Positions 39,995 through 45,256 of a stretch of 64,000 nt of DNA are shown one piece after another (within the stretch, counting starts at the first letter, position 1; every line of letters starts with the position of its first letter). The notes beneath the pieces were generated by a model that was given only the letters and a program-made list of their open reading frames with translations, searched no databases and was not told the origin of the DNA. The position numbers and the translations under genes were made by a program. Origin of the DNA: Natrialbaceae archaeon (GTDB lineage: Archaea > Halobacteriota > Halobacteria > Halobacteriales > Natrialbaceae); contig PWMF01000040.1 of the NCBI GenBank assembly GCA_003559215.1, forward strand, positions 1-64,000, given 5' to 3'.

Positions 39995-41626
39995 CTAATC
40001 GTGGCGAAAACTCCGCTGTCCCGTAAACGCCATCGCCATCCCGTGTTCGTCCGCGGCGGCGATCACGTCGTCGTCGTTGACCGAGCCGCCGGGCTGGACG
40101 ACCGCCTCGATGCCCGCCTCGGCGGCCTCCTCGATCCCGTCCGGAAACGGGAAAAAGGCGTCCGAGGCCATCACGGCACCCTCTGCAGTCTTCCCTTCGG
40201 CGTGTTCGTCGGCTTTCATCGCCGCCAGGCGAACCGCGTCGACGCGGGAGACCTGTCCCATCCCGACGCCGACGGTTTCGGTGCCCTGCGCGAGGAGGAT
40301 CCCGTTCGACTTGACGTGTTTCAGCGTCTGCCAGGCGAACACCATCGACTCGAGTTCGTCCTCGGTCGGCTCGCGCTCGGTAACGACCTCGAGGTCCTCG
40401 ACGGCAATCGACTGGAGGTCCCGTTCCTGGACGAGTCGGCCTCCGACGAGCGGTTTCTCTGTGAACCGATCCGTTCGGTCGCCCAACTCTCCGACGTCCA
40501 GTACGCGCAGATTCTCCTTCTCGCAGAGCACCTCGAGTGCGTCCTCGGTGTAGCCCGGCGCGACGACGACCTCCTTGAACGAGTCGATCACCTGTTCGGC
40601 TGTATCGGCGTCACACTCCCGGTTGAGTGCGACGATGCCGCCGAAGGCACTCATGGGGTCGGTCGAGAGGGCCTTCCCGTAGGCTTCGGAGAGCGACTCC
40701 GCCGTCGCACAGCCGGCAGGATTGGTGTGTTTGATCACCGCCGCCGCGGGCTCCTCGAACTCTTTGATGAGATTCAGCGCGCCGTCGGCGTCGTTGTAGT
40801 TGTTGTACGACAGCGATTTCGCGCCCTCGTTCAACTGGTCGGCGTGGACGACGCTAGCCTCGCCGCAGGTGTAGTCGGCGTACACCGCGGCGTCCTGATG
40901 GGGATTCTCGCCGTACCGCAGCGTGTCGACGCGGTCGCTCGAGGCGAGGCGCCGAGTCGGCAGCCCCTCGGCGTCGGGGGCGCTCGAGACGTCGGTTTCG
41001 ACCGACACCTCGTCGGCCTCGAGATCCACGTCCACCGCACCCTCGGCGAACCACTTCACCGCCCGCGGGTACGCCCGGAACTCGCCCTCGTGGAGGACTC
41101 GATCCTTCAGCGTCTCCTCGTCGTCACCCTCGTAGATCGCCACCGGCTCCTGGGTGACGATCGGGCCGGCGTCGATCTCCGCCTCGATGACCTCGCCGTC
41201 CTCGTCGGTCGCGTCGGTGACGACGTGGACGGTACAGCCCGTTACGGAGACGTCCGCCTCGAGCGCGTCGCCCCAGGCGTCGTCGCCGGGGAACGCGGGC
41301 AGCAGGGAGGGGTGGACGTTCAGCGTCGTCGGCTGGGTCTCGAGGAACGTATCGGAGAGGATCCGCATGTAGCCGTCGAGACAGATCAGGTCGAACTCGT
41401 ACGCCGCCAGGGCCTCGTTGACCGACCGTTCGTGTTCGCGACGATCGATCCCGTCCTCGAGCGGAACGACCTCGGTCGGAATCCCGCGTTCGGCTGCGGC
41501 CTCGAGGATCGGCGCCTCCGGATCGTAGGACAGGACGACGGCGAGGTCGGCTCCGCCCGGTCGACGGTCGGCGACGTTCAACAGGTTGCGGCCTCGGTTG
41601 CCGGCCAGTCCGGCGATTCGGGTCAT
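39995..41626 (-). CDS. purH: Fused GAR transformylase-AICAR transformylase (PurN-PurH)
   Basis: A 543-residue fusion. Residues ~1-190 are a PurN-type GAR formyltransferase: MTRIAGLAGNRGRNLLN, LDGYMRIL, LNVHPSLLPAFPG and DEDGEVIEAEIDAGPI. Residues ~215-543 are the AICAR transformylase half of PurH: RYGENPHQDAAVY, LSYNNYNDADGALNLI, IKHTNPAGCATAES and AFGGIVALN. The IMP cyclohydrolase (MGS-like) domain that bacteria place at the N-terminus is missing and replaced by PurN. Haloarchaea make IMP with separate PurO, so this fits established knowledge. The fusion puts two formyl-transfer steps of purine synthesis in one protein. It is divergent from purB. Confidence 0.9.
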   Translation of the reverse strand: MTRIAGLAGNRGRNLLNVADRRPGGADLAVVLSYDPEAPILEAAAERGIPTEVVPLEDGIDRREHERSVNEALAAYEFDLICLDGYMRILSDTFLETQPTTLNVHPSLLPAFPGDDAWGDALEADVSVTGCTVHVVTDATDEDGEVIEAEIDAGPIVTQEPVAIYEGDDEETLKDRVLHEGEFRAYPRAVKWFAEGAVDVDLEADEVSVETDVSSAPDAEGLPTRRLASSDRVDTLRYGENPHQDAAVYADYTCGEASVVHADQLNEGAKSLSYNNYNDADGALNLIKEFEEPAAAVIKHTNPAGCATAESLSEAYGKALSTDPMSAFGGIVALNRECDADTAEQVIDSFKEVVVAPGYTEDALEVLCEKENLRVLDVGELGDRTDRFTEKPLVGGRLVQERDLQSIAVEDLEVVTEREPTEDELESMVFAWQTLKHVKSNGILLAQGTETVGVGMGQVSRVDAVRLAAMKADEHAEGKTAEGAVMASDAFFPFPDGIEEAAEAGIEAVVQPGGSVNDDDVIAAADEHGMAMAFTGQRSFRHD

Positions 41627-41794
41627 GGTCGAACCCGTGACCGCGAGAGGCAAAGCCGTTGCGGTCTCGAGCGCCTTGGTATACACAATTAAGCATTACT
41701 ACGACAGTATTTGGCCCCCAGATTTTCGAAGTATGCACGGTCGTGGCACCTCGTTTCGATACGCTTTTGCACCGCGCTGGAAAGGATCGGAACG

Positions 41795-43239: not shown

Positions 43240-43338
43240 ATGATCGAGTATCTCTTTCCGGAGATCGCCACGATCCTGCTGTTTCTGATCGGGATCGTCT
43301 GTATGATCATCTTGCTGTACATCTCGACCCGCTGGTGA
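43240..43338 (+). CDS. 32-residue single-helix membrane microprotein
   Basis: ATG at 43240 opens a frame of 32 codons: IEYLFPE, then a ~20-residue hydrophobic helix (IATILLFLIGIVCMIILLY) and ISTRW, then TGA. A clean helix with a short acidic and a short basic end suggests a real membrane microprotein. It starts 53 bases after purB. Comparison with related genomes would settle whether it is conserved. Confidence 0.45.
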   Translation: MIEYLFPEIATILLFLIGIVCMIILLYISTRW

Positions 43339-43351
43339 GACGTGGCACGCG

Positions 43352-45256
43352 TCACCGCTCGCGTTCGCAGTCCGCGAACTCGAGCCCGGTGAGTTCGAAC
43401 CGCGCCCCGCCGTCGGCGCCGTCGGTTGCGGCCACGTCCCAGCCGTGTGCGTCGCAGATCCGTTCGACGATCCCGAGTCCGAATCCCGTTCCGTCCCGAC
43501 GCTCCGAGTAGCCCGTCTCGAAGACCGCCTCGCGTTTCTCCGCCGGAATCCCGGGCCCGTCGTCGGCCACGTAGATTCCGTCCTCGAGCTCGCCGACCGT
43601 GACGGTCACGTCCCTCCCGGCGTGTTCGACCGCGTTGCGAACGAGGTTCTCGAGGAGCCGCTGGAACCGGCTCGGGTCCGCCTCGATCGACCGCTCCGTC
43701 TCGACCTCGAGGGTCGCCTCGGCCGTCTCGACGTGACGCCAGCAGTCGGCGACGGTCGCCGCGACGTCAACGGGTTCGGGCTCGAGTACGGATCGCCCCT
43801 CCCGCGCCAGCGTCAGGAGGTCGTCGATCAGCGCCTCCATCCGAGCGTGGGCTCGTGCGACGTCCTCGAGGTTGTCGTCGTCGCACGCCTCGCGAGCGAG
43901 TTCGAGCCGGCCCGCGGCCACGTTCAGCGGGTTCCGCAGGTCGTGGGAGACGATGCTCGCGAACTCCTCGAGGCGATCGTTCTGGCGCTCGAGAGCCGCC
44001 TCGCGTTCGAGCCGCTCGATCGCGTTCGCGGTGTGGCTGACGAGCAGCTCGGCGAACTCGACGTCCTGGGCGTCGAACGCGGCCGTATCGGTACTGGCCG
44101 CCTGGAACACACCGTACTCGCCGACCGGGACGCTAAAGCCCGATCGGTAGCAGTCCTTCGCGGGATCGGCGTCGCTTTCAGGGGTGACTTCGTCGACGAG
44201 ATAGGAATCCCCGGACCGAAACGTCTTGCCGGCCAGTCCCTGATCGAGACGCATCGGTCGGCTCCCGTCCACCGGGGCGTCGGCCGAGGTCGCCCGCGGA
44301 ACCAGCCACTCGCCGTCGCACAGCAGCAACGAACAGAGGTCGAACTCGAGGACGTCGGCCGCCGCGTCGACGGTCCGTTCACAGACGGCGTCGACCGACT
44401 CCTCGGTCTGGATCGTCGTCGCGATCTCGTGAAGCGACTCGAGGATGATCCGGCGACGCGTTCGCTCGGCAATCTCTCGCCCGATACCGACGAGTCCGAC
44501 CAGTTCCCCGTCGGGACCGGTCAGCCGCGAGCCGGTGAATTCGTAGGGGATTCGCTCACCGTCGGCGGTGAGCAGCGCGGATTCGACGGTTTCGGGATCG
44601 CCGCGCAGAACGTTCTCAATCGATCGTGTTATCGCCTCCCGTTCGTCGGCCGGAACGAACTCGAGGACGTCCATCTCTTCGATCTCGTCGTCCGTGTAGC
44701 CGGTTACTTCCCGGAGGCGTTCGTTCCACCGACGGAGCCGTCCCTCCGTCCCGACCACGTAGAAGACGTCGTCGAGAACGTCGAGTCCCTGCTCGACGAA
44801 CTCGCGTTCGCGCTCGAGTTCGCGCTCCCGTCGCCTGCGGTCTGTCACGTCCTGCTGGATCCCGACGAAGTTCGTCACCTCGTCACCATCGAACAGCGGT
44901 GCGATCGTTACGCGGTTCCAGAACGGATCGCCGTCCTTTCGATAGTTCAGCAGTTCGACGGTGACCGGTTCACCCGCATCGATCGCCGTTCGCATCCGCT
45001 CGACGGATTCCGCAGCGGTCCGTTCCCCCTGGAGGAGCCGACAGTTCCGGCCGAGGATCTCCTCCCGAGAGTAGCCGGTGAGTCGGATGAACCCCTCGTT
45101 CGCGTACGTGATCGGATTGTCCGGCCGGCCGGGATCGGTGATCACCATGCCCACCGGTGCCTCGTCCATCGCCTGCTCGCGCAGCGACAGCGCATCGCGA
45201 ACCGACTCGTCGTCGAATCCGCCGGCGATCCCACCTCTTGCCTTCTCCGCGGTCAT
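43352..45256 (-). CDS. LOV-PAS-GAF sensor histidine kinase
   Basis: A 634-residue soluble kinase. Domain order: PAS 1 (~25-140), PAS 2 (~150-265), GAF (~270-410), HisKA (H-box SHDLRNPLNVA, ~435) and HATPase (DDGPGIPAEKREAVFETGYS...GTGFGLGIVERI). PAS 1 has the LOV signature: GRNCRLLQG at 69-77 (Cys72), NYRKDGDPFWN (Asn104, Asn114) and VGIQQDVT (Gln134), the residues that bind and react with flavin. It is therefore a candidate blue-light or redox sensor. There is no receiver or transmembrane helix, and no response regulator gene beside it. LOV identity is read from motif only. Confidence 0.85.
   Translation of the reverse strand: MTAEKARGGIAGGFDDESVRDALSLREQAMDEAPVGMVITDPGRPDNPITYANEGFIRLTGYSREEILGRNCRLLQGERTAAESVERMRTAIDAGEPVTVELLNYRKDGDPFWNRVTIAPLFDGDEVTNFVGIQQDVTDRRRRERELEREREFVEQGLDVLDDVFYVVGTEGRLRRWNERLREVTGYTDDEIEEMDVLEFVPADEREAITRSIENVLRGDPETVESALLTADGERIPYEFTGSRLTGPDGELVGLVGIGREIAERTRRRIILESLHEIATTIQTEESVDAVCERTVDAAADVLEFDLCSLLLCDGEWLVPRATSADAPVDGSRPMRLDQGLAGKTFRSGDSYLVDEVTPESDADPAKDCYRSGFSVPVGEYGVFQAASTDTAAFDAQDVEFAELLVSHTANAIERLEREAALERQNDRLEEFASIVSHDLRNPLNVAAGRLELAREACDDDNLEDVARAHARMEALIDDLLTLAREGRSVLEPEPVDVAATVADCWRHVETAEATLEVETERSIEADPSRFQRLLENLVRNAVEHAGRDVTVTVGELEDGIYVADDGPGIPAEKREAVFETGYSERRDGTGFGLGIVERICDAHGWDVAATDGADGGARFELTGLEFADCERER

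Follow-up and report, generated by a model that had tools for sequence, protein, structure and literature searches.

We found that a gene in a 64,000-nucleotide stretch of a Natrialbaceae archaeon genome (GenBank contig PWMF01000040.1, positions 1 to 64,000; hereafter the window) encodes a sensor histidine kinase whose first PAS domain (PAS 1) is identified as a LOV domain by its sequence, its predicted fold and the residues tested. The protein is probably a cytoplasmic, dimeric, blue-light-responsive histidine kinase. It is the product of a single gene in its interval, reading on the minus strand from an ATG start at 45256 to 43352, with the following features:

43352..45256, minus strand: LOV-PAS-GAF-HisKA-HATPase sensor histidine kinase, 634 aa (ORF and translation; Pfam; full-length orthologues 77–88% identical)
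44831..45178, minus strand: LOV domain, residues ~27–142, assigned by phmmer (E 3.8e-38), AlphaFold (pLDDT 93.8) and Foldseek (TM 0.92–0.96 to LOV kinases)
45029..45052, minus strand: LOV motif GRNCRLLQ, residues 69–76, with Leu74 in place of the usual Phe
45041..45043, minus strand: Cys72 codon, expected adduct-forming cysteine (alignment of LOV-type rows)
44777..44845, minus strand: linker helix from LOV to the second PAS, residues 138–160 (helix in the predicted model)
44456..44785, minus strand: second PAS, residues 158–267, not LOV-type (Pfam PAS_4; no strong LOV match)
44015..44401, minus strand: GAF domain, residues 286–414 (Pfam GAF_2, E 3.4e-14)
43799..43972, minus strand: HisKA dimerisation/phosphoacceptor domain, residues 429–486, with His438 in SHDLRNPL (Pfam HisKA; motif at 437–444)
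43388..43678, minus strand: HATPase_c ATP-binding domain, residues 527–623 (Pfam and motifs)

The Pfam span of the first PAS covers residues 34–139. At the other end of the protein the kinase motifs are intact: an H box with His438, the expected phosphoacceptor, is followed by HATPase_c motifs at 536–546 (N box, ENLVRNAVEHA), 565–571 (DDGPGIP) and 589–597 (GTGFGLGIV), and the H, N, G1 and G2 boxes together predict a HisKA-type histidine kinase. Pfam found neither a BAT nor an HTH_10 domain, and the kinase is thus not of the Bat (bacterio-opsin activator) type. The first-pass annotation had described the protein as soluble, which agrees with a maximum 19-residue Kyte–Doolittle mean of 1.32, too low for a membrane helix. 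Its composition is acid-rich with arginine favoured over lysine (22% D+E, 65 R, 5 K). A full-length AlphaFold model (pLDDT 80.9, pTM 0.46) was used for helices only, its domain arrangement not being trustworthy. Twelve of 14 rows show a distance of 48 between the LOV DVT and the GY of the PAS that follows, and in the other two no such site was found; a fixed helical linker of this kind would fit the signal transfer through coiled coils reported for photoreceptor kinases (PMC6798134, PMC8092228).

Searches against solved structures gave Bacillus YtvA (2mwg, E 3.8e-38), which has a STAS output, and YF1 (4gcz, E 6.2e-38) as the closest solved sequences to PAS 1, with further matches to a Meiothermus LOV kinase, aureochromes, the Brucella LOV-HK and phototropins. 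The second PAS domain (PAS 2), serving as an internal control, reached a best E of only 6.8e-4, and a chance motif in an ordinary PAS domain was rejected on this difference. The NCBIfam models that matched PAS 1 were the YtvA family (NF052652, E 8.6e-49, 166 bits) and a blue-light-activated histidine kinase (NF052306, E 3.2e-42, 145 bits); both scores lie below the whole-protein cut-offs of these equivalog models (250 and 450 bits, respectively) because the LOV part alone is shared. An AlphaFold model of the LOV domain, built from 21 haloarchaeal sequences, had a pLDDT of 93.8 and in Foldseek best matched the Meiothermus LOV domain (9vf7, TM 0.94–0.96), with TM scores of 0.93 to YF1 and 0.92–0.93 to a Brucella LOV-PAS construct. 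The matches listed, at least 50, were all LOV entries or LOV-containing constructs. The assignment of PAS 1 to the LOV family, put forward earlier from the letters of the sequence, is thus supported by the best solved matches, the predicted fold and the key residues.

Those residues had been named as Cys72, Asn104, Asn114 and Gln134 together with GRNCRLLQ, and all are present at these positions. Every flavin-contact position considered is intact (T40, N47, N71, C72, R73, Q76, R89, N104, N114, F130, G132 and Q134); T40, N47, R89, F130 and G132 stand at positions that touch the flavin in LOV domains. The remaining positions other than the cysteine (N71, R73, Q76, N104, N114 and Q134) correspond to residues listed as LOV-conserved in PMC4682037. 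That list gives G59, N61, R63, F64, L65, Q66, N94, N104 and Q123 of YtvA, and on the YtvA alignment eight of the nine are matched here, by G69, N71, R73, L75, Q76, N104, N114 and Q134. The ninth, YtvA F64, is Leu74 in the window kinase, and other Cys-bearing rows also have Leu there. In an alignment of 27 LOV-type rows (from BLAST hits scoring 60 bits or more, after removal of duplicates and of the window's own copies) the cysteine is present in 24. Two of the three Cys-less rows (L033 and L046) are also altered at the Asn and Gln contacts, and because they lost them together, the joint presence of the Cys, Asn and Gln contacts speaks for their use. A Bat-type LOV-like protein of the same genome (L003) retains Asn, Asn and Gln without Cys, so the Asn and Gln contacts alone are no proof of an adduct. 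A natural contrast to the window kinase is provided by L033 (L033:1498-3018), a LOV-descended PAS-GAF-kinase with GRDWPSLQ, in which the Cys is lost, the Asn residues are replaced by Leu and Ser, and Gln by His. A further variant, GxDCRFLQ, with Asp for Asn before the Cys, occurs in five Halorubrum LOV-type domains (L072, L079, L081, L084 and L087) and is missed by the usual motif searches.

We then compared the kinase locus across the genus Natronococcus. The nearest named relatives, Natronococcus sp. A-GB7, N. amylolyticus and Natronococcus sp. A-GB1, are 88% identical over the full length. The kinase is present in five of nine genus genomes (the window's own included; orthologues in four of the eight others), always between purB and dapE, and is missing from the other four. 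All four orthologues keep the Cys, both Asn and the Gln. Their dN/dS values relative to the window kinase are 0.13–0.29 for the LOV part and 0.15–0.29 for the other parts, and purifying selection acts on the LOV part as it does on the remainder of the kinase. In G130 and G264, which lack the kinase, the purB–dapE gap is 270–320 bases, and a kinase remnant was rejected in both, tblastn giving only matches of E 0.042 or worse. Other genes occupy the kinase site in G295, and the region is rearranged in G292. A dapE tree with 35 rows places the kinase-less G130 as sister to the carrier G132 (support 100/99), so a single clean clade of carriers was rejected and at least one loss, or two gains, of the kinase must be assumed, a reading that rests on this one gene tree and not on a species tree. 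Another 26 dapE loci from the family, most of them taken with ~1.5 kb of flanking sequence at either end, gave no full-length kinase match. In G104 a LOV protein with GQNCRFLQG, resembling LOV-Bat by eye, follows dapE at the position of the Natronococcus kinase (L170:2949-4073).

Two other features of the window lie near the kinase. Between purB and the kinase (43240-43338, plus strand) there is a frame for a 32-residue single-helix membrane microprotein (MIEYLFPEIATILLFLIGIVCMIILLYISTRW); similar frames, found by a loose pattern only and not by a family search, occur in L139, L132, L133 and L134, including at sites that lack the kinase. A frame on the minus strand (39995-41686) reads by eye like a fused PurN-PurH purine synthesis protein.

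How such a kinase might work can be proposed by analogy: flavin identity, dimerisation, photoadduct and signal route are all drawn from the studied relatives YF1 and Brucella LOV-HK (PMC4682037, PMC6798134, PMC8092228). PAS 1 would bind FMN, and under blue light Cys72 would bond reversibly to flavin C4a; N5 would become protonated, turning Gln134 and shifting the beta sheet and, with it, the linker helices. The signal would travel along the helix at 138–160 and through PAS 2 and GAF, which may contribute inputs of their own, to the helix leading into HisKA (396–457), and would change autophosphorylation of His438. The phosphate would pass to a response regulator whose gene lies at another place in the genome. 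The LOV domain of a haloarchaeal kinase is reported to absorb at 446 nm and to form a 390 nm photoproduct (PMC12202551). Light represses YF1 and activates Brucella LOV-HK (PMC4682037, PMC6798134, PMC8092228), so light could either raise or lower the activity of the window kinase.

Blue-light sensing is the best reading of PAS 1 on its sequence, model and residues. Against it speak the unusual Leu74, the absence of the gene from four of the nine genus genomes and a site with no known cognate regulator or light-related neighbour. A redox input is possible because Cys-less LOV proteins (VVD and YF1 variants) still signal, via photoreduced flavin, according to PMC4682037. The same source describes a haloarchaeal BAT-LOV domain with Pro that shifts conformation on reduction, and the Pro form is present in this genome as L003. 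We nevertheless consider it unlikely that the kinase is a flavin redox or oxygen sensor, in which the redox state of the LOV-bound flavin is the physiological signal and light is secondary: a pure redox sensor would not need the cysteine, whereas Cys72 is kept in all four orthologues.

The relatives of this kinase, taken part by part, show a mosaic of units common in haloarchaea (rows of at least 70 bits for the LOV part or 100 bits for the kinase part). Outside the genus, the closest counterparts of its LOV part belong to kinases from Halorubrum, Halobacterium and Haloferax (59–65%). The three near relatives that were scanned (L058, L061 and L062) are receiver-PAS-LOV-PAS-kinases, and L032 has a receiver and a PAS followed by LOV-PAS-GAF-kinase. 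Other relatives have no LOV domain, either as PAS-GAF-kinases of 495–496 aa (L023 and L024) or as GAF-kinases of 370–410 aa (L025, L026, L028, L029 and L031), and because they exist the kinase module can work without LOV. It could be argued from them that PAS 2 and GAF carry the main signal of a multi-input kinase, which the LOV domain merely tunes. This appears improbable to us, given that the LOV part is under the same purifying selection as the rest of the protein and that neither PAS 2 nor GAF has a known ligand.

The kinase is one of several LOV-related proteins in its genome. Eighteen places match PAS 1, and three of them (E 8.8e-98, 3.1e-46 and 3.3e-36) stand apart from the next (1.3e-13). 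L002 (C99:15765-16154) is a second Cys-LOV protein, with the order LOV-GAF(weak)-BAT-HTH_10 and the motif GRNCRLLQ, and a relative of this LOV-Bat was found in all nine genus genomes. L003 (locus C173:137962-144560, with L177) is a receiver-LOV*(Pro)-GAF-BAT-HTH_10 protein with GRNPRFLQ. The sole rhodopsin gene detected lies ~4 kb away from it, with a beta-carotene dioxygenase gene also near, and it belongs to the BAT-LOV* type studied in PMC4682037.

Leu74 is the sole departure of the kinase from the LOV motif, and Phe occupies the position in all four genus orthologues. The residue belongs to an aromatic triad described as Phe-Tyr-Phe in other LOV domains and as Tyr30, Tyr36 and Tyr48 in ALovD-1, where changing the motif residue (Y48F) altered the yield and stability of the adduct at low salt and a change at this position lowered the yield from 0.49 to 0.13 (PMC12202551). 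From the alignment we infer that the triad of the window kinase would be Phe56-Tyr62-Leu74, with one ring missing. In LOV-Bat of the genus the motif residue is Leu in the five kinase carriers, Phe in three non-carriers and Ile in G130, a pattern that may simply reflect descent. Gene conversion from LOV-Bat was dropped as the source of Leu74 and is not needed, since the codon lies a single base from that of the three nearest orthologues (TTC to CTC; TTT in G132). One speculative scenario, to which we give little credence, is that one Natronococcus lineage reads blue light by an old LOV-Bat transcription factor, present in all nine genomes, together with this kinase, which would have been inserted between purB and dapE and later lost from one species or more; in the window's genome both have Leu in the triad and so may be tuned alike, to a response unlike that of the usual LOV domain. 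Could the LOV domain instead be a relic that no longer makes a photoadduct? The replacement of Phe by Leu74 and the existence of degenerate LOV kinases such as L033 would be in keeping with this, but it is very unlikely, as all other contact residues tested are intact and Leu also occurs in the Cys-bearing L002 and L061.

As to the partner of the kinase, it had been noted at first sight that no response regulator adjoins the gene, and this was confirmed: none of the 19 receiver matches in the genome falls on the 77-kb contig of the kinase (C89), so a partner regulator beside the gene was rejected. No light-related neighbour is known at the site either. It is extremely improbable that the kinase relays light to the rhodopsin cluster by phosphorylating the Bat-type regulator near the rhodopsin gene: such a regulator was found in three of the nine genus genomes, each of which also has the LOV kinase, but this co-occurrence (3/5 vs 0/4) is not significant, and its receiver has Glu for the phosphoacceptor Asp (VSEQSLPG) and lacks the acidic pair (by eye against L058 and L061), so phosphotransfer was rejected and L003 is an unlikely target.

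To place the kinase among haloarchaea, we searched for the motif GxNCRxLQ as a DNA pattern (GGNNNNAAYTGYMGNNNNYTNCARGG), which finds only motifs with Asn before Cys and misses the Halorubrum GxDCRFLQ type; of the 292 haloarchaeal genomes sampled, 250 contained it, representing 69 of 77 genera, and the reversed control pattern gave one match (G101) when the rows listed were read by eye. A LOV-like protein match of E ≤ 1e-25, Cys-less ones included, was found in 262 of the 292 genomes. Sensing of blue light through flavin is therefore probably widespread in the class Halobacteria. The light biology of haloarchaea has mostly been rhodopsin work, and archaeal LOV proteins are described as little studied (PMC4844311, PMC12202551); among the papers available, a search on Natronococcus and LOV domain found none. 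The kinase offers a clean test, as carriers, N. amylolyticus among them, can be compared with empty-site relatives, and the LOV-less related kinases show what a LOV domain adds.

The kinase is not new in kind, since a 2014 listing already included archaeal LOV kinases (PMC4844311) and a 2025 study demonstrated photoactivity for the LOV domain of one haloarchaeal kinase (PMC12202551); its gain and loss at one site within a genus, and Leu74 for Phe, are small novelties. The 2014 listing comprises 167 archaeal LOV proteins, with HTH output in ~30% of the halobacterial ones and the remaining archaeal ones described as kinases with RR, GAF and PAS units (PMC4844311); the window kinase shares with its kinases the class Halobacteria, a Cys-LOV domain, GAF and PAS units and histidine kinase output. 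It differs from the near LOV-PAS kinases L058, L061, L062 and L032 in having no N-terminal receiver. ALovD-1, the LOV domain of a Halonotius-type kinase, is likewise a haloarchaeal kinase LOV with Cys, acid-rich and with Arg over Lys; it has Tyr at the place of Leu74 and is the second of three PAS domains, whereas the LOV domain of the window kinase is the first of two (PMC12202551). The bacterial kinase Mrub_1259 of Meiothermus ruber (9vf7) is the best fold match, and the likeness covers the LOV domain. Of the closest solved sequences, Bacillus YtvA and YF1, the latter was engineered by fusion to the FixL kinase (PMC4682037). Brucella abortus LOV-HK (6ph4, 6ph3, 6pps; PMC8092228) shows the same LOV-PAS-kinase order and a DVT starting the linker helix; compared with it, the window kinase has an extra GAF domain, and the Brucella partner is of the PhyR type.
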